NCBI GenBank assembly: GCA_030690405.1
Contig: JAUYGU010000137.1
Coordinates: forward strand, 1-31,712
Length of the DNA stretch: 31,712 bases
Source of the DNA: Dehalococcoidia bacterium
Lineage (GTDB): Bacteria > Chloroflexota > Dehalococcoidia > SM23-28-2 > RBG-16-64-32
Direction of reading: 5' to 3'
In this document: positions 6,153 to 17,641 of the stretch, piece after piece
How the letters are laid out: every line of letters begins with the position of its first letter
Numbering within the stretch: the stretch's first letter is position 1
Translations under genes and position numbers: made by a program
Notes under the pieces: model-generated
The model's database searches: none
Told to the model about the DNA's origin: nothing
The model's input: only the letters and a program-made list of their open reading frames with translations

Positions 6153-6752
6153 CTACAGCGCCTCTTTGGTGCTCGGGATCTCGCCGCCCACGCGTTCGTT
6201 GATGGCGACCGCCTGGCGCAGCGCCAACGCCAGCCCCTTGAACGCCGCCTCTATCCGGTGGTGGTCGTTCCCCCCGGCCAGCTCCCGCACGTGCAGGTTG
6301 AGCCGCCCCTCGCTAGCGAAGGCGGCCAGGAAGTGGCCGATGTTTTCCGTTGGCAGTTGCCCCAGCAGCTCGCGTTCGAAGTTGAACTCGATTCCGGCGT
6401 GGGCGCGGCCGCCCAGGTCCAGCGCCACCAGCACCAGCGCCTCGTCCATCGGCACCACCGCGTGGCCGAAGCGGGTGATCCCCCGCCGCTCGCCCAGCGC
6501 CTTGTCCAGCGCCTGCCCCAGCACCAGCCCCACGTCCTCCACCAGGTGGTGCGGGTCGCGGTCGATGTCGCCGCTCGCGTCGACGGTCAGGTCCAGCAGT
6601 CCGTGCTTGGCCAGCTGCTCCAGCATGTGGTCCAGCATGCCGACGCCGGTCGAGACCTGGTAGCGGCCGCTGCCGTCCAGCGAAAGCTCCACGGACACGG
6701 TAGTCTCCCGCGTCTCCCTGCGGACGCTGGCCGTGCGGGCGCTCTCAGGCAA
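6153..6752 (-). CDS. hisB: imidazoleglycerol-phosphate dehydratase
   Basis: Dehydrates imidazole glycerol phosphate to imidazole acetol phosphate, histidine step 6. The 199-residue product has the two Mn-binding histidine blocks: DHMLEQLAKHG (41-51) with HHLVED (68-73), and later HAVVPMDEA with NDHHRIEAAFKGLA. It is the monofunctional dehydratase without a phosphatase domain. I chose TTG 6752, which overlaps the hisC stop (TTGCCTGA), follows GGAG about nine bases upstream and gives the normal family length. The frame continues upstream only inside hisC. It is the last gene of the his operon; the next his genes are not in the window. Confidence 0.95.
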   Translation of the reverse strand: MPESARTASVRRETRETTVSVELSLDGSGRYQVSTGVGMLDHMLEQLAKHGLLDLTVDASGDIDRDPHHLVEDVGLVLGQALDKALGERRGITRFGHAVVPMDEALVLVALDLGGRAHAGIEFNFERELLGQLPTENIGHFLAAFASEGRLNLHVRELAGGNDHHRIEAAFKGLALALRQAVAINERVGGEIPSTKEAL

Positions 6753-7854
6753 CGCCCGCTCCGATCTCCGCCAGCGCCTCCACCAGGCGGTCCGTGTCCT
6801 CCGGCCTGCCGACGCTGATCCGGATACAGCCGCGCACGCCCGGCGAATCGAAGTAGCGGACAAGCACGCCGCGCTCCCGCAGTTGCGACTGCACGTCGGT
6901 CGCCGGCCGGCCCTGCACCTGGCAGAGCAGGAAGTTCGCCTGCGAGGGGTAGACGCGCAGCCAGGGGAAGCGCCCCAGCGCCTCCGCCATCCGCCCGCGC
7001 TCTTCGACGATGCGCTCCACGTTGCGGGAGAGCGCCTCGCGGTCCTCCAGGGAGGCGAGCACGGCGGCCTGCGCGGCCACGTTCATGTTGTACGGCATCT
7101 TGATTTTGCGGATCGTCTCCGCGACGGCGGGGGGGAAAACCCCGTAACCGGCCCTGAGCCCCGCCAGCCCCGCCCACTTACTGAACGTCCGCACGACGAT
7201 AAGGTTATCGTGCTGCGCCGTCAGCGGGACGAAGCTGCCGCCGGCGAACTCCGCGTACGCCTCGTCCACCACGACCGCCGCCTCGTGGGCGAGCAGCCGC
7301 TCGAGCGCTTCAGGCGGGACGGCGTTGCCCGTCGGGTTGTTCGGCGAGGCGAGGAAGACCAGCTTGGCGCCGGCCGCAAGCGCCGCCTCCATGGCGTCAA
7401 CGTCCAGCCCGAAGTCCTCCCGCCGCGGCGCCTCGACAAGCTTGGCCCCGTAGGTGCGGGCGACGAAATCGTATATGCCGAACGTCGGCGGCGCGTTCAG
7501 CACGGCATCGCCCGGCGAGATGAACAGCCGGCCGGTGAGATCCAGCATCTCGTCGGAGCCGTTGCCGACGACGATCCGCTCCGGGTCCACACCCACGTAA
7601 CCGGCCACCGCCTCCCGCATGCGGCGCTGCTCGGGGTCGGGGTAGATGTGGTAGTTGGGGTAGCGCGCCATCGCCTCCCGCGCTTTGGGCGAGGGCCCGT
7701 ACGGGTTCTCGTTGCCGTCCAGCTTGACCAGCCGCTCCTCCGGGATGCCCAGCCGCTTCGCTAGGACGTCCGGCGGCTCCACCGGAGCGTAGGGCGGCAT
7801 CGCCACCAGGTCCTGGCGGGCCAGGCGCAGAAGGCCGTCGTCTTTCGAGCCCAC
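6745..7854 (-). CDS. hisC: histidinol-phosphate aminotransferase
   Basis: A 369-residue fold-type I PLP enzyme that converts imidazole acetol phosphate and glutamate to histidinol phosphate. Visible motifs: KLDGNENPYGPSP (44-56), VVGNGSDE (95-102), SPNNPTG (170-176), VDEAYAEF (197-203), and the PLP lysine K226 in TFSKWAGLAGLRAGYG. The start is GTG 7854, one base after the hisD stop. The stop overlaps the hisB start by eight bases. Confidence 0.95.
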   Translation of the reverse strand: MGSKDDGLLRLARQDLVAMPPYAPVEPPDVLAKRLGIPEERLVKLDGNENPYGPSPKAREAMARYPNYHIYPDPEQRRMREAVAGYVGVDPERIVVGNGSDEMLDLTGRLFISPGDAVLNAPPTFGIYDFVARTYGAKLVEAPRREDFGLDVDAMEAALAAGAKLVFLASPNNPTGNAVPPEALERLLAHEAAVVVDEAYAEFAGGSFVPLTAQHDNLIVVRTFSKWAGLAGLRAGYGVFPPAVAETIRKIKMPYNMNVAAQAAVLASLEDREALSRNVERIVEERGRMAEALGRFPWLRVYPSQANFLLCQVQGRPATDVQSQLRERGVLVRYFDSPGVRGCIRISVGRPEDTDRLVEALAEIGAGVA

Positions 7855-7855
7855 C

Positions 7856-9193
7856 TCAGCGCTCCTCTTCCAGCCGTCGCTCGATCGCCCGCGCGTGGCC
7901 TTCGAACCCCTCGGCGCGTGCGATCGCGGCCGCCGGCGGGCCGAGCTTCGCCAGCGCCTTCCGGTCGAGCGACACGACGCTCGTCGCCTTCAGGAAGTCT
8001 TGTACGCCCAGGGGTGAGGCGAAGCGGGCGCTGCCTCCCGTGGGCATGACGTGGCTGGGGCCCGCCGTGAAGTCGCCGATCGACTCCGCCGAGGCCGGCC
8101 CGGCGAACACCGCCCCCGCGTTCCGCACGTTGTCCAGCAGCCGCTCCGCCCGCTCCACGTGCAGGCAGAGGTGCTCCGGCGCGAACTCGTTCGCCAGCTC
8201 CAGCGCCTCCTTCACGTCGTCGACGATCACGATGCCGCCGCGCGCCTCCAGCGAGGCGCGGGCGACGGCCCCGCGTCCGATGGCGGCGATCTGCGACTGG
8301 AGCCTGCCGAGCACCGTCGTCCCTTGTTCCTCGGAAGTCACGATCAGGATCGCCGTGGCCAGCTCGTCGTGCTCCGCGCCGGCCAGCAGGTCGGCCGCCA
8401 CCATGCCGGCGTCGGCCCGCTCGTCGGCGATCACGACCGTCTCGGAGGGGCCGAAGATGCCGTCCAGGCCCACCGTCCCGTACATCTGGCGCTTGGCCTC
8501 GGTGACGAACACGTTTCCAGGCCCGCATATCTTGTCGACTCTGGGGATGGACTCCGTGCCGTATGCGAAAGCGGCGATCGCCTGGGCGCCCCCGGCGCGG
8601 AACACCCGGTCCACCCCGGCGATGTGCGCCGCCACCAGCTTGAGGGGCGACACGCTCGCGTCCGGCAGCGCCGGCGTCGCCATCACCAACTCGCGGACGC
8701 CGGCGGCCTTCGCCGGTATCGCCGTCATGAGCACGGTGGACGGGTAGACGGCTGTCGTGCCGGGCACGTAAATGCCCACCCTGGACAGCGGACGCACTAT
8801 CTGGCCCACGCCGTCCTTGCTGAAGCCGCGCAGGGCGTGCTCCAGCTGCTGCTTGTGGAAGCTCCGGATCTGGTCCGCCGCCTCGCGCAGGGCAGTCACA
8901 AGCGCCTTGTCCAGTTGTTCGTAGGCGCTCTCGATCTCCCCCTCGCTGACCTCCAGCAAGCGCGCGAGGTCGCCGTGCACGCCGTCGATCTCCTCGTTGA
9001 AGCGCACGACCGCCGCGTCGCCCTGCTCGCGCACCTCCCGCAGGATGCGCGCGACCACCTCGCCGACGCTGAGGTCGCCGCCGAAGGTGCGCCGGATCAC
9101 CTCGCGGACGGCCGCGGGCAGCTCCGCCGCCTCCACCGGCGTCCGCTTGAGGACGGTGGCCCTCGCCTCCTCCGCGCCGCGCGCTATACGCAT
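7856..9193 (-). CDS. hisD: histidinol dehydrogenase
   Basis: 445 residues, the full family length. The zinc enzyme oxidises histidinol to histidine in two NAD-dependent steps. Characteristic blocks: GIYVPGTTAVYPSTVLM, the FRAGGAQAIAAFAYGT segment, KICGPGNVFVTEAKRQMYG, GIFGPSETVVIADE and AGAEHDELATAIL. The C-terminal SHVMPTGGSARFASPLGV block carries metal and substrate ligands. ATG 9193 overlaps the end of the upstream PLC-like gene by ten bases, so the two are translationally linked. Confidence 0.96.
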   Translation of the reverse strand: MRIARGAEEARATVLKRTPVEAAELPAAVREVIRRTFGGDLSVGEVVARILREVREQGDAAVVRFNEEIDGVHGDLARLLEVSEGEIESAYEQLDKALVTALREAADQIRSFHKQQLEHALRGFSKDGVGQIVRPLSRVGIYVPGTTAVYPSTVLMTAIPAKAAGVRELVMATPALPDASVSPLKLVAAHIAGVDRVFRAGGAQAIAAFAYGTESIPRVDKICGPGNVFVTEAKRQMYGTVGLDGIFGPSETVVIADERADAGMVAADLLAGAEHDELATAILIVTSEEQGTTVLGRLQSQIAAIGRGAVARASLEARGGIVIVDDVKEALELANEFAPEHLCLHVERAERLLDNVRNAGAVFAGPASAESIGDFTAGPSHVMPTGGSARFASPLGVQDFLKATSVVSLDRKALAKLGPPAAAIARAEGFEGHARAIERRLEEER

Positions 9194-9942
9194 TCCAGGT
9201 ACTCCCTCACTGCCGTCACGCTGCCCTGCACGGCGCCGTCCATGAACTCCCGGACCCGTCCTTCCGTCAGATAGCGAAGCGTCTCGTCCGCCAGGTCGGG
9301 CAGCGACCGCACGAACTCCTCAAACTGCTCAGGCGTCTCGATCCCCGCCTCGCGCAGGTGCCGGCTCGCGACGTAGCGGAACCGCTCCCAGTCCGGCGCG
9401 TGGTCCACAACGTCCAGGATCAGCTCTCGCCAGCGGTGGAGCGTATCGCTGTCGATGAACTCTATCTCCAGCGCGAGGTCGGAGCGGGCCACTGCCTCTA
9501 GCACGTGGGCCATCAGTTCACGGTCGATGCGCTTCTCCCGGTCCAACGAGAACTGGATCGCCCGATCCATGATGTTGGCGCGCAGGTCGCCGCCCAGGGG
9601 AGAGCGCTGTCCGAAGAACGGCCGGTAGATGGTGTTGATCCAGAGCTCGTCCATCACCAGGTGAGTGACGTACCCCGCCACGAACGCCGCCGTCCCCGGA
9701 CGAAGGCTTCCCGGCTGTCCCAGCCGTGGATAGGCGCTGAACAGGCCCGCCACGCCGCTCTGCTCGTCGAAGTTGTGCAGGTCGAAGAAATGGGTGCGTC
9801 CGCGCTCCCAGCGCGTGATCACGCGGATATCGGGGGCGGTGGCGCCCAGGTACAGGTTCCCGCGCTCCGCGTCGAGCACGCGGTGGCGCAGGCGGTCGCC
9901 AACTTCCTTGGCGATGACGGTGTGCAGTCCCAGCGGTGGCAT
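9184..9942 (-). CDS. zinc-dependent phospholipase C-like protein inside the his operon
   Basis: 252 residues. The N-terminal half resembles the Zn-dependent phospholipase C family (PF00882 type): GLHTVIAKEV, then YLGATAPDIRVI, THFFDLHNF and FVAGYVTHLVMDEL. It has His and Asp residues spaced as in the metal site. The second half is helical and I do not recognise it. There is no signal peptide, unlike classical secreted enzymes, so a cytoplasmic hydrolase is more likely. It lies between hisG and hisD, 27 bases after hisG, and overlaps hisD. This suggests an operon-linked role, but none of the ten canonical histidine steps needs it. ATG 9942 has only a weak ribosome binding site. Confidence 0.75.
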   Translation of the reverse strand: MPPLGLHTVIAKEVGDRLRHRVLDAERGNLYLGATAPDIRVITRWERGRTHFFDLHNFDEQSGVAGLFSAYPRLGQPGSLRPGTAAFVAGYVTHLVMDELWINTIYRPFFGQRSPLGGDLRANIMDRAIQFSLDREKRIDRELMAHVLEAVARSDLALEIEFIDSDTLHRWRELILDVVDHAPDWERFRYVASRHLREAGIETPEQFEEFVRSLPDLADETLRYLTEGRVREFMDGAVQGSVTAVREYLECV

Positions 9943-9969: not shown

Positions 9970-11391
9970 TCAGACTGCCCGGCGCGCATTCGCCGCCTGC
10001 TGCATGGCGCGGACCACCTGCTCGAACACGTCGCGGCGGCGGCCGTCCAGCCCTCCGTCCTTGCGGGCGATGAGGCACGTCGTCGACCGGAACAGCAGGT
10101 CGATCGGCTTCAGCCTGTTCTCCGTGAGCGTTCGGCCCGTCTCCGTCCCTTCGATCAGGAGCTCGGCGTCGGCGGGGACGAACCCTTCGGACGCTCCGGC
10201 AATCGGTATAACCCGGTACCGCCCCAGGTGGCGGCTGCGCGCGTAGGCGTCAGCGATGCCGGGGAACTCGGACGCGACCCTGATGGTCTGCCTGCCCTGA
10301 GTTCGCCAGTGCTCAAGGGCGCCGCTCAGGTCGGACGCCGGCACCGCCTCGCTGGCGACGGCGGCGAGGTCGAACTGGCCGCGCTGGAGGTCGGCGACCT
10401 CCTCCAGAGGGCTGGAGGGGAAGCGGCTCAGGTGCTCGGTCAGGCAGTCGCGGCCGGTGATCGCAAGGTCCATCTCACCTGTGGCGACGAGCTGGGGCAT
10501 GTCGTGCGGACGTATGACCTTGATCTCGAGGCCGGGCAGCGGGCTCACGGGACGCCGCAGGCACTGCGAGTCGTCGTAGCCCTGCGGCGGCAGCAGGCCG
10601 GCCTCTCCCAGCGCCGCTACGGCGTGGCGCTGCTGGTGGCCGTCCGGCAGCGCCATGCGCACCGTGTCAGCGCTTCGTGTCGCAGGTCCGGCGCCGGCGG
10701 AGGCCGCAACCAGGGGTGGCGGCAGCCGCAGCCGCGGCGTGGCGGCGCCGGCGGCGCCTGCCGCCAGCGGGTCCAGGATCGGCGCGAGCGCCTTCTTCGC
10801 CAGGCTTTCCGCGTTGGCGATCAGCCAGGCGGAGCTCTCCATCAGGCAGAGCAGCGGACTCAAGCCGTGGCCCGACACCGCGGCCTCGTCGGCGGCGGCG
10901 ATGACCGCCAGGTCGGCGTCCTCCGGCGGGTACGCCTCCGCCGCGCCCCACACGGCCAGCACGCGGTATGCGGGCAGCCGCGCCGCTAGCGCGAACGCCT
11001 CAGCGATGTTCGGGTACTCGCTGGCGATCCGCAGGACGCGGCCGCCAAATGTCGCGAGCGTCCGGCCGCCGTCGGCCGCCGACGCCACGTAAAGACCCGA
11101 GCGTCCCACGCCGAGGTCGCGCAGAGGCACGACCGGGTGGTGGGGGAACCTGGCCCGCAGCTCCTCCACCCAGGCCATGCCGCAGACGCCGAGGTCGTAG
11201 TTGCCGAGCGCGATCTGGATGGGGATGTCCTTCTCGCGGAAGACGCGCGCGACGACATCCGAATGTCCACCAACGCTGAGGATGTACGTGCGTGAGCCCT
11301 CGCCGTAGCCTTCGACGTTCAGGCCGGCGGCGCCGAGGACGCCGGCGACGGGTGTCCGCAGGTCGCCCGCCGGCAGGGCGAGCTTAATCAC
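9970..11391 (-). CDS. hisG: ATP phosphoribosyltransferase with two fused HisG domains
   Basis: First, committed step of histidine synthesis (ATP + PRPP). The 473-residue product is about twice the short-form HisG. Residues 1-210 and 241-446 are each HisG-like, joined by an Ala/Pro-rich linker (211-240). Equivalent blocks: KLALPAGD and RMALPDGH; DIPIQIALGNYDLGVCG (55-71) and DMPQLVATGEMDLAITG (297-313); RIASEYPNIAEAF (121-133) and RVASEFPGIADAY (371-383). The PRPP loop is kept only in the second copy (EGTETGRTL, 414-422); the first reads AADEAAVSGHGL. The usual KGRL near the start is absent in both. GTG 11391 overlaps the hisZ stop. Inference: one catalytic and one degenerate half, working with HisZ. 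No other hisG is in the window. Confidence 0.9.
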   Translation of the reverse strand: MIKLALPAGDLRTPVAGVLGAAGLNVEGYGEGSRTYILSVGGHSDVVARVFREKDIPIQIALGNYDLGVCGMAWVEELRARFPHHPVVPLRDLGVGRSGLYVASAADGGRTLATFGGRVLRIASEYPNIAEAFALAARLPAYRVLAVWGAAEAYPPEDADLAVIAAADEAAVSGHGLSPLLCLMESSAWLIANAESLAKKALAPILDPLAAGAAGAATPRLRLPPPLVAASAGAGPATRSADTVRMALPDGHQQRHAVAALGEAGLLPPQGYDDSQCLRRPVSPLPGLEIKVIRPHDMPQLVATGEMDLAITGRDCLTEHLSRFPSSPLEEVADLQRGQFDLAAVASEAVPASDLSGALEHWRTQGRQTIRVASEFPGIADAYARSRHLGRYRVIPIAGASEGFVPADAELLIEGTETGRTLTENRLKPIDLLFRSTTCLIARKDGGLDGRRRDVFEQVVRAMQQAANARRAV

Positions 11392-12610
11392 CGGCGGCTT
11401 CTCGCAGCGCCTCCGCCACGGCCTCCACGCTGTCCAGCTTGCGAGCCTTCCCCGCCGCGCCGGAGACGGTGAACATTTCGCCGGAGACCTCCACCCGCGC
11501 ACCGCCCTCCGCTGGCGACCGGGCGACCTGCACCGCCAGACCGCGCTCCCGCAGGGCGGCGGCCAGCCGGAACGCCGAGGCGAGCGACGCGCTATCGGCC
11601 GCCCGCGCCAAGACCGTGGCCGGCAGACGCCGCCGCCGCTCCTCGTCCGAGAGGAGGCCGGCGAGGACGCCTGCCTCCAGGGCGAAGCCCGACGCTGGCG
11701 CCTGCCGGTCGCCGATCAGCGATACGAGGGCGTCGTAGCGGCCACCGCCGCCGATCCGCCGGCCCGAGACTTCGAGCTGAAAGGCGGGGCCGGTGTAGTA
11801 CTCAAAGTTGCGCACCATTGCCGCCGAGATCAGGATGCGGCAGCCGAGCTCCTCCAGCGCCCCCGCGACGACGGCCAGCTCCTCCAGCGGCGTCTCCATC
11901 TCGGGGACGCTCTTGAGGAAGGCGCTGCGTATGTTGCTCAGGTAGGCGCGGCCTTCACCCTCGATGCCGAGTAGCATCTCCAGGGAGGCGCCGACCTCAG
12001 GCAGGAGTCCCTGCAGCTCCGGCAGCGCCGAGTCGTCTCCGTCCAGGATGCGGTCGTAAAGCGCCAGCTGTTCGGAGGCGTCCAGCCCCGCCCGCGAGAG
12101 CACCGCGCGCACCAGCCCCGGGTGTGAGAGCCGCACGTCCGCCTCGATGCCAAGCCGGCTCAGCACCTCCCGCGCCAGAACCACCAGCTCGATATCGCCT
12201 TCCGGCTGGCTTTCACCGATCAGCTCCACGCCGCACTGCCAGTCCTCCCGCGACTCGTCGCCTTCGGCGAACCGGAAGACGTTCTGGACGTAGAACAGCT
12301 TCGCCACGCGGCCGCCGTCCAGCGATTCGGCGTACAGCCGCGCCGCCGGGATGGTGGAGTCCGGCCGCATGACGACGCGTTCGCCGCTCCAGCCGTCCCA
12401 GTCCAGGAAGGAGTAGACGCGGCCCAGCAGTTGGGGGGAGAGGGTGCCCGCCGTGGTGAACAGGTGCAGGTGCTCCAGGACGGGGGTGCGCACCTCGTCG
12501 TACCCCCAGCCCAGGCAAACGGTCCGGAACGCCTCCTCCACACGGCGGAAGCGCCTCATCTCGTCCGGCAGGATGTCCCTCATGCCGGCGCAGCGCAAAG
12601 TTTGGTCCAT
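11384..12610 (-). CDS. hisZ: ATP phosphoribosyltransferase regulatory subunit (HisRS paralogue)
   Basis: 408 residues resembling the class II histidyl-tRNA synthetase core. It opens with CAGMRDILPDEMRRF, followed by MRPDSTIPAARLYAE (motif 2 region), YYTGPAFQLEV and GGGGRYDALVSLIG. The arginine needed for aminoacylation in the last block (GFAxGxER of HisRS) is absent: it reads GFALEAGVL. That and the adjoining hisG make this HisZ rather than HisS. A C-terminal segment of about 85 residues resembles the anticodon-domain fold. I chose ATG 12610, preceded by AGGAG nine bases upstream and by a good promoter at 12639-12667; the frame is open further back into purC but has no family similarity there. 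Confidence 0.93.
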   Translation of the reverse strand: MDQTLRCAGMRDILPDEMRRFRRVEEAFRTVCLGWGYDEVRTPVLEHLHLFTTAGTLSPQLLGRVYSFLDWDGWSGERVVMRPDSTIPAARLYAESLDGGRVAKLFYVQNVFRFAEGDESREDWQCGVELIGESQPEGDIELVVLAREVLSRLGIEADVRLSHPGLVRAVLSRAGLDASEQLALYDRILDGDDSALPELQGLLPEVGASLEMLLGIEGEGRAYLSNIRSAFLKSVPEMETPLEELAVVAGALEELGCRILISAAMVRNFEYYTGPAFQLEVSGRRIGGGGRYDALVSLIGDRQAPASGFALEAGVLAGLLSDEERRRRLPATVLARAADSASLASAFRLAAALRERGLAVQVARSPAEGGARVEVSGEMFTVSGAAGKARKLDSVEAVAEALREAAGD

Positions 12611-15166: not shown

Positions 15167-17641
15167 CTAGGGCGGTATGCAGATCTTGTTGAACACTGGG
15201 ATGTACAACATCACGTCCGCCAGCGTGATTCCGCCGCTCTGGTTCAGGTCGTACCGTGGGTTGTACGGTGGGTTCGGGTCGAAGCTGTTGAACACCGGTA
15301 TGTAGCCCATGACGTCCGCAAGAGCAGCCCGCTGGTTATCGTCAAAATCGAACGGCCAGGGGTCCGGGTTTTCGTCGTTGGCGGTGGCGGTGAGGGAGCA
15401 GCCATTCATCGGGTTGGTGCCCAGAAAGAGCGCCTCCGAGTCGTCGGTGAAGGTGTCGCCGTCGAAGTCGCCGCCGGGGGAGTCGTGGCAGCCGTCAACA
15501 TCGATGACGCCGTCGTAGTCCTCGAAGGTGAGCACGACGTCGTCGGTGGAGAAGGCGGCCTCGGGCGGGTCGTCGCGTTTCCCGTTATGGTTGAGGTCCT
15601 GGGGGGCGCCGAGCATGCCGTCGCCGCCAGCCAGAGAGTCCGTGCCGGGGCACATGTCGCCAACGTCGGGGTGGCCGTCGTTATCGTTGTCGGGCTCGGG
15701 GCAGCCGTCGGAGTCCTTGAAGGCGTCGACGTCCTCGGGGATGTTCTTGCAGTCGACAGTTGGCGAGGGGAGGGTGCCTGCGGGGTCGAAGACCATCTTG
15801 GCGGAGTCGGAGACGTCGGGGACGCCGTCGAGGTCATTATCGGTATCCGGGCAGCCGTCGCCGTCCTGGAAGCCGTCGTAGTCCTCGGGGTCGAAGGGGC
15901 AACCGTCCTCGGCGTCTGAGAGGCCGTCGCCGTCAGAGTTGGGCGCCGCGGCGAAGGCCGCCGAAAACTCGGAGGTGTTGCCGGCGGCGTCGGTGGCGGT
16001 GGCCGTGAGGTCGGCCAGCGGGTGCGCCACGCCGGAAAGGCTGAAGTTGCCGGCCGCGTCGGCACTGTCCGACCCCAGGTGGACGCGGCCCTCCTCGGCC
16101 AGGTCGTTGTAGACGTCCACGGTGCAGAGGGCGCAGGCGAAGCCGCTGACGGTGCCCCCGGCCACGGAGCCGATCGCGGGCGCCGGCAGGTCGAGGTTGC
16201 CGCCAACGGTGGTATTGATGCCCAGGAGCGAATTGGAATGGATAGAGTTGCCGCGAATAGTGTTGCGAACTCCTGAATCAACCCAGACGCCGGTGCCGTT
16301 GAAGGCTATGATGTTCGCCTCTCCCGCCGCCGTGCCGCCTATGATGTTGTCGTCCCCGAAGGCGCTCGCCCGGACGCCCGCGGTCGTGTTGCCCAGGGGG
16401 CCTGTGCCGGCGGCGTCGGTGCCTATCTTGTTGCCGATGACCGTGTTCGAGGAGGATACGGCGATGTAGACCCCCACGTCGTTCCCGGATATGAGGTTCC
16501 CCTCGCCGGGGCCGGCGCCGCCGATGGTGTTCCCCACAGCACCCACGGCGAGGCCCACACCCGCATCCGACATTCCCATGTCGACCGTGCCGCTGGCGTC
16601 TGTGCCGATGAAGTTGCCCACCACCTTGTTGCCCGTGGCGGCGCTGTAAAGACCGATGCCCACACCTACTGCGCCCTCACGGATGACGTTTCGCTGTCCG
16701 GAGAAGACGCTGCCGCCGATGACGTTGTCGTCACCGGAGATCGCGATGCTCGTGGCGCCTGCACAACGCCTGATCTGAAGCCCCTCGATGTGGTTGCCGT
16801 TCCCTATCAGACCGAAGCAGAAGATGTTGAGGTTCTGCCCATCGACGATGACGCCGGCGCCGATGCCGCTGACCACGTCCCCGTTGACGTCCATGTATGG
16901 CAGCTCGGAGCCGATGGCGATGGTAGAGGGAGTCGTCGGTGGGAACGTCGTGTAGTTGGCGAAGTGGATCAGGTCCGAGCCGGAAGCGCCGCCGGCGGCA
17001 CTGTTCAGCACCAGCGCCTGCTCCCCGGCATCCAGACTTCCGAAGGCAAGATCGCCTGCGGCCAGCAGCATGGCCTCGCGCAGGGTGATCGCCCCGTCCC
17101 TCGTGTCCGTGTCGGCGATGGAGTTGACGTATATCGCGGCGCCCAGGGACATGTTGAGCACGACGTTCCCCGTGGTGCCCGAGTAGCCACCCACCTGGAT
17201 GCGGTAGGTGGTGCTGGCGGCGTACGTCAGCGCTAAAGTTGACTGCACGGACTCTCGGGTGGAGGAGGGGAACAGGTCGTCGTTGCAGCCCACGTTGGTG
17301 AGCGGAAACCCGCTTCCCGTATAGACGGCGAGGACGGTGTCGAAGTCGCTGCCCCAGGTGTCGAAGACGACGGTGCCGGTGCTCGCCGGGCTGATCCAGG
17401 TGTACCAGACCGTAGCGCCGATGTCGCAGGGCTGGTTCTCGCTGCCCTCTGTGGTGGCGCCCACGTTGCTGCCGGTGGCGACGATGCCGGAGGTGGCGGG
17501 CGTCGCGATGGCGATGGCGTCGGCGAGGTTATCGTTGGCGGGGGCGGCTAGCGCGAGCTCAGGGGCCGTGGGAAGCATGACGAAGACGGCGGCCAGCACA
17601 GCCGCCGTCGCGAGGAGCCAGAGTCGTCTCGTGGTTAGCAG
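15167..17641 (-). CDS. large secreted beta-helix protein with TSP3-like and dockerin-like C-terminal repeats
   Basis: 824 residues as called. Order: signal peptide ending ELALA; a PPC-like beta-sandwich (NDNLADAIAI, VWYTWISPASTGTVVFDTWG) to about residue 170; a CSLREA-like start (YVNSIADTDTRDGAITLREA); a right-handed parallel beta-helix with NxIGG and GNxIGTDAxG rungs to about 510; a short Ig-like segment; Asp-rich TSP3-type calcium repeats (NSDGDGLSDAEDGCP and similar, about 566-700); and two dockerin-like repeats (LADVMGYIPVFN, LADVMLYIPVFN) at the end. It is likely a cell-surface calcium-binding protein; substrate unknown. The first GTG (17599) would leave a signal peptide without positive charge. 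CTG 17641 follows AGAGGGGA by seven bases and adds LTTRRLWLL, so I prefer it. A TTGACG lies at 17695-17700. Confidence 0.85.
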   Translation of the reverse strand: MLTTRRLWLLATAAVLAAVFVMLPTAPELALAAPANDNLADAIAIATPATSGIVATGSNVGATTEGSENQPCDIGATVWYTWISPASTGTVVFDTWGSDFDTVLAVYTGSGFPLTNVGCNDDLFPSSTRESVQSTLALTYAASTTYRIQVGGYSGTTGNVVLNMSLGAAIYVNSIADTDTRDGAITLREAMLLAAGDLAFGSLDAGEQALVLNSAAGGASGSDLIHFANYTTFPPTTPSTIAIGSELPYMDVNGDVVSGIGAGVIVDGQNLNIFCFGLIGNGNHIEGLQIRRCAGATSIAISGDDNVIGGSVFSGQRNVIREGAVGVGIGLYSAATGNKVVGNFIGTDASGTVDMGMSDAGVGLAVGAVGNTIGGAGPGEGNLISGNDVGVYIAVSSSNTVIGNKIGTDAAGTGPLGNTTAGVRASAFGDDNIIGGTAAGEANIIAFNGTGVWVDSGVRNTIRGNSIHSNSLLGINTTVGGNLDLPAPAIGSVAGGTVSGFACALCTVDVYNDLAEEGRVHLGSDSADAAGNFSLSGVAHPLADLTATATDAAGNTSEFSAAFAAAPNSDGDGLSDAEDGCPFDPEDYDGFQDGDGCPDTDNDLDGVPDVSDSAKMVFDPAGTLPSPTVDCKNIPEDVDAFKDSDGCPEPDNDNDGHPDVGDMCPGTDSLAGGDGMLGAPQDLNHNGKRDDPPEAAFSTDDVVLTFEDYDGVIDVDGCHDSPGGDFDGDTFTDDSEALFLGTNPMNGCSLTATANDENPDPWPFDFDDNQRAALADVMGYIPVFNSFDPNPPYNPRYDLNQSGGITLADVMLYIPVFNKICIPP

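Follow-up and report, generated by a model that had tools for sequence, protein, structure and literature searches.

ATP phosphoribosyltransferase has been studied extensively as an allosteric enzyme. Its short form, HisG(S)/HisZ, is a hetero-octamer in which four HisZ join four HisG, and a dimer of short HisG holds two active sites, each combining one subunit's PRPP loop with an arginine that extends from its partner. Two architectures of the enzyme have been described so far, HisG(L) and the pairing of HisG(S) and HisZ (PMC10795190). In PaHisGS, the Arg56 of one subunit crosses the dimer to the pyrophosphate of the PRPP held in the other, and activity falls 25-fold in R32A, 42-fold in R56A and about 24-fold in R56K; HisZ, about 20 Å away, sets the active-site arginines of HisG by a mechanism that is still under study (PMC9734150). 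A further arginine, Arg73, contacts the gamma-phosphate of ATP (PMC10795190). Gene elongation, in which tandem duplication, divergence and fusion leave two paralogous halves, is described for hisA and hisF in a paper that also examines hisB and hisD and names hisG, in the part available, once and in operon order (PMC7284861). The hisG described here appears to have taken the same course, with the difference that its halves would split one active site between them. We found no description of a hisG–hisG fusion in the literature searched, which was mostly open access and of partial coverage; a hisZ–hisG fusion, a different arrangement, is named in passing in the available part of PMC9413887, and the corresponding part of a paper on his gene fusions mentions hisG twice, both times in operon order (PMC1963479).

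The window analysed, the whole stretch of 31,712 nucleotides from a Dehalococcoidia bacterium, carries the fused hisG at positions 9970–11391 on the minus strand, as do all the parts of it located below; the gene starts with GTG and encodes 473 amino acids followed by a stop codon. An earlier note, made from the letters of the sequence, had claimed a tandem HisG fusion in one chain, with the PRPP loop only in its second half and a short-form partnership with HisZ, and had asked for a PF01634 profile check and a search of relatives for the same fusion. The profile check confirmed the tandem fusion, the chain matching the curated family models PF01634 and TIGR00070 over their cut-offs with two HisG domains. 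Domain 1 (residues 1–212; 10756–11391) retains the trans arginine and is without a PRPP loop: Arg34 (11290–11292) is the equivalent of Arg56 in PaHisGS, as set by aligning half 1 to two PaHisGS chains, wild-type 5m8h_E and 7z6r_C, which bears R56A, and at residues 164–172 (10876–10902), the place of the PRPP loop, the motif is lost. A fast-evolving linker (residues 213–243; 10663–10755) leads to domain 2 (residues 244–473; 9973–10662), in which the PRPP loop is present (EGTETGRTL, residues 414–422; 10126–10152) and the Arg56 place, located by alignment to 11te, is taken by an unconserved Gln276 (10564–10566), with Arg279 and Arg280 (10552–10557) beside the lost trans arginine. The PaHisGS numbering was checked, the letters R32, R56, K57, C115 and D179 agreeing with PMC9734150.

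The fused chain has the HisG catalytic fold common to HisG(S) and HisG(L), and is predicted to be an ATP phosphoribosyltransferase forming PRATP. With the HisG(S)/HisZ systems of Psychrobacter arcticus, Acinetobacter baumannii, Lactococcus lactis and Thermotoga maritima, it shares the HisG fold, the lack of HisG_C and the adjacent hisZ, and its molecule, as in HisG(S), contains both a trans arginine and a PRPP loop. Unlike them, it has two HisG units per chain with reciprocal losses and a histidine for the KGR arginine in the PRPP half, and it is predicted to have one site per pseudo-dimer where HisG(S) has two; in place of a single-domain chain forming a homodimer with two equal sites, we find two diverged domains. 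The fusion seems to work like, and to descend from, HisG(S)/HisZ and to differ from it in the single-domain homodimer feature. The catalytic core fold is also that of HisG(L) (Escherichia coli, Mycobacterium tuberculosis, Campylobacter jejuni), but the fusion comes with HisZ and without the HisG_C regulatory domain, which the profile search found neither in the window protein nor in any of eight fusion genomes (0/8). HisG_C-bearing HisG does occur in the same class: in the class of genome G001, 11 of 12 sampled single-HisG genomes have the domain, 10 of them over the cut-off. That class mixes fused HisG plus HisZ with HisG carrying HisG_C, and replacement between the two is possible.

In many Chloroflexota, Dehalococcoides included, HisG consists of two fused copies, and the active-site part that has been lost differs between them. 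The search of relatives found the fusion whole, in one open reading frame, at 87 loci in many assemblies, these being the sum of 53 and 34 from two sources in which the same species may occur twice. The search of genome contigs matched 59 loci, with both halves in one frame in 53 and only a part, at contig ends, in 6. The best 120 of 3157 protein matches were all PF01634-tagged and 385 to 495 aa long (113 of them 460–486 aa), and the organism-named records among these 120 were from Dehalococcoidia or Chloroflexi; single long HisG may be among the 3157 matches, a figure that is no count of fusions. Across the phylum sample, HisG was present in 310 of 400 genomes and fused in at least 36 of the 310 (34 plus G001 and G005). 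In the class of G001, HisG was found in 221 of 245 genomes, with two matches in 142, one in 78 and three in 1, the figure of 142 being a count of matches for most of which placement in one frame is unconfirmed. The fusions fall into two clades, A and B, split by one half-2 column in agreement with the first-half tree; B is the less diverged, the window sequence belongs to A, and named protein records of Dehalococcoides mccartyi and Dehalogenimonas carry the clade-B form. Two loci titled Dehalococcoides mccartyi (L025, L032) and one titled Thermoflexus hugenholtzii (L055) hold clade-A sequence, unlike the D. mccartyi protein record, and are probably mislabelled MAGs.

The fusion is the sole HisG in all 44 fusion-bearing relatives searched (10/10 and 34/34), none having another PF01634 match at E <= 1e-3, and is thus the only candidate that fusion genomes offered for the catalytic chain of ATP phosphoribosyltransferase. 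A HisZ partner is also encoded beside it. In the window, a hisZ-like gene (11384–12610, minus strand, start codon picked by eye) overlaps by 8 bases, its stop running into the start of the fused hisG; its product scores under both family cut-offs (TIGR00443, 198 against 271.65 bits; TIGR00442, 189.9 against 286.75) and is therefore a diverged HisZ. A hisZ-like frame, in some cases only partly within the locus, lies at most 400 bases upstream on the same strand in 86 of the 87 fusion loci, and at the one locus without it, the upstream sequence amounts to 172 bases. A separate HisRS over the cut-off was found in 21 of 22 fusion genomes.

The common origin of the halves was addressed with a tree of 92 rows, comprising 36 fusion proteins with two rows each, 18 of 19 single HisG and two solved chains. 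Clades A and B share one group of first halves (support 100/100) and another of second halves (100/96), whereas single HisG and the solved chains group on the opposite side of a 100/98 branch. With any root among the ordinary HisG, this grouping implies that a single duplication and fusion preceded the separation of clades A and B, and on the tree both halves trace to one duplication, with the qualification that branch lengths are large (1.03 for the one leading to the first halves) and long-branch effects possible. Selection holds the two halves almost alike. Between the window gene and four relatives, dN/dS is 0.145–0.184 in half 1 and 0.111–0.140 in half 2, the higher values making half 1 slightly looser; in the computable clade-B pairs the ranges are 0.017–0.052 and 0.014–0.038. 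By these ratios, the constraint on domain 1 nearly equals that on domain 2.

What the two domains have kept and lost was counted in 324 fusion proteins (323 distinct; clade A 177, clade B 147), made up of the 87 loci and 237 of 241 database proteins, four short ones having failed the filter for both halves; the proteins are related, and the counts hence nonindependent. Arginine stands at the Arg56 place in the first halves of 176/177 clade-A proteins, the remaining one having a gap, and of 137/147 in clade B, against 22/177 and 20/147 second halves (42/324 in all). The threonine and glycine of the PRPP loop show the reverse: they are present in 324/324 second halves, as the earlier note had it, and in 4/324 first halves (0/177 in clade A, 4/147 in clade B). 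The joint pattern, arginine in domain 1 and the loop residues in domain 2, is found in 313/324 proteins (176/177 and 137/147, the latter rising to 142/147 if lysine is allowed at the Arg56 place), and the converse pattern in 0/324. Within clade A, the Arg56 column is invariant in domain 1, the gap aside, and in domain 2 comes 223rd of 224 by conservation. The Arg73 equivalent is kept in domain 2 (Arg294) in 324/324 and in domain 1 (Arg52) in 154/177 clade-A and 0/147 clade-B proteins. In 19 rows of single HisG, arginine occurs at the Arg56 place in 16 or 13, depending on the alignment, and G181 in 19/19 either way. Over the 324 fusions, then, each half tends to lose what its partner supplies.

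The correspondence with PaHisGS is not complete. The KGR arginine (Arg32 of PaHisGS) is a histidine in domain 2 of all 323 proteins with a letter at that position, and catalysis must thus differ in detail from that of PaHisGS. In clade B, the same arginine stands in domain 1 of 129/147 proteins, though the loop residues are mostly gone from that half, and this retention falls outside what a composite site explains; the KGR motif is seen in domain 1, the half without a PRPP loop, in the clade-B loci L082–L106. The D. mccartyi fusion has a lysine at the Arg56 place of domain 1. Beside the lost trans arginine, Arg279 and Arg280 of domain 2 are mostly conserved, being present in 176/180 and 167/180 clade-A and in 23/28 and 28/28 clade-B sequences. 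By these features, the chemistry does not simply copy that of PaHisGS.

We consider it quite probable that the fused HisG is a covalent pseudo-dimer with one composite active site, run together with HisZ. A short ancestral HisG would have duplicated in tandem and then fused; domain 2 would give the PRPP loop and the ATP-side Arg294, domain 1 the reaching Arg34, and the mirror-image second site would have decayed on both sides, leaving one working active site per chain at the interface of the two domains. HisZ may bind the pseudo-dimer as it does a normal HisG dimer, and the predicted assembly joins two fused chains to four HisZ and contains two active sites where HisG(S)/HisZ would have four. 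Couplings between the halves, from a mean-field analysis that is weak at this length with an effective number of sequences (Neff) of about 150, in part support such an interface. The pair Tyr36–Thr421 ranks second among 47,508 between-half cells, and Ile37 and Thr35 couple with Phe340, the place of Cys115 in PaHisGS. The mean of the top five couplings between the arginine loop of half 1 and the site of half 2 is 5.43 against 2.27 for the mirror image when all rows are used and 5.42 against 3.15 in clade A alone; clade B alone gives no signal (2.45 against 2.15). Control windows, which slide and include overlaps with the tested one, were equally high in 4/206 cases for all rows, 2/207 for clade A and 65/207 for clade B. 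The tested windows were chosen once a first ranking had been seen, and further couplings between the halves, without known meaning, rank equally high.

Whether the site would form within a chain or between chains bears on this reading. A domain swap, in which domain 1 of one chain and domain 2 of another make up the composite site in a dimer of fusions, fits the residue pattern as well as cis pairing does, the pattern by itself being unable to separate the two, and the linker of about 31 residues, predicted with low confidence in the second of two AlphaFold models, might permit it. Against it, both models, single-chain predictions for two distant members of the fusion family, reach a high pTM (0.89 and 0.88), which we read as the halves being confidently placed within one chain, and we regard the swap as rather unlikely.

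The earlier note had seen in the first half a degenerate, noncatalytic pseudo-enzyme that might serve allostery. In a fuller form of that idea, the emptied pocket of domain 1 would bind AMP, ATP or histidine and control domain 2, the arginine being kept for that purpose. Domain 1 is indeed strongly conserved without a PRPP loop, with motifs of its own (WGAAEAYPPEDAD), and its ATP-side Arg52 is mostly kept in clade A (154/177). Yet the same arginine is missing from 147/147 clade-B proteins, the frequent loss of the trans arginine from domain 2 is left unexplained, and HisZ is retained in 86/87 loci, so that a new histidine sensor would be unneeded. The degenerate and noncatalytic labels fit poorly with a domain that keeps the trans arginine mostly lost from its partner and is constrained nearly like it, and domain 1 is better read as supplying a part of the active site; a purely regulatory domain 1 seems improbable to us, while an added allosteric role could coexist with the composite site. 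That two adjacent hisG genes were joined into the long frame by an assembly error or a frameshift, or that the frame is a decaying pseudogene, has nothing in its favour but the oddity itself and is refuted, to near certainty, by the 87 one-frame loci, among them one with chromosome in its record title (L048) and contigs 1.4–2.1 million bases long, by dN/dS of 0.014–0.184 in both halves of the 12 pairs, out of 14, for which the two values were computable, and by the fusion being the sole HisG in 44/44 genomes.

If the composite pseudo-dimer with HisZ is right, its predicted assembly may amount to a third architecture of the enzyme, a HisZ4(HisG–HisG)2 hetero-hexamer with two composite sites, its halves locked as arginine donor and PRPP/ATP binder, HisZ acting through two unequal interfaces and the direction of the allosteric signal fixed; on this extension our judgment is evenly divided. 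In a homodimer, each mutation strikes both roles together. In the natural fusion the donor and acceptor halves are separate, and thus each role, and each HisZ interface, could be altered alone. In a wide group of bacteria to which Dehalococcoides belongs, an apparently sole metabolic enzyme seems to have changed from a homodimer with two sites into a pseudo-heterodimer with one.

The his cluster continues downstream of the fused hisG on the minus strand, with hisD at 7856–9193, a class I/II aminotransferase (PF00155) in the hisC position at 6745–7854, the name hisC coming from context, and hisB, an imidazoleglycerol-phosphate dehydratase, at 6153–6863, its true start being uncertain. Between hisG and hisD in this cluster lies a 252-aa frame (9184–9942, minus strand) with a weak match to PF00882, zinc-dependent phospholipase C (21.8 bits, cut-off 26.8). 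Elsewhere in the window, an 810-aa protein (15167–17599, minus strand), for which a Pfam search at 1e-5 returned zero matches, shows acidic DxDxDG-like repeats by eye and is perhaps secreted.
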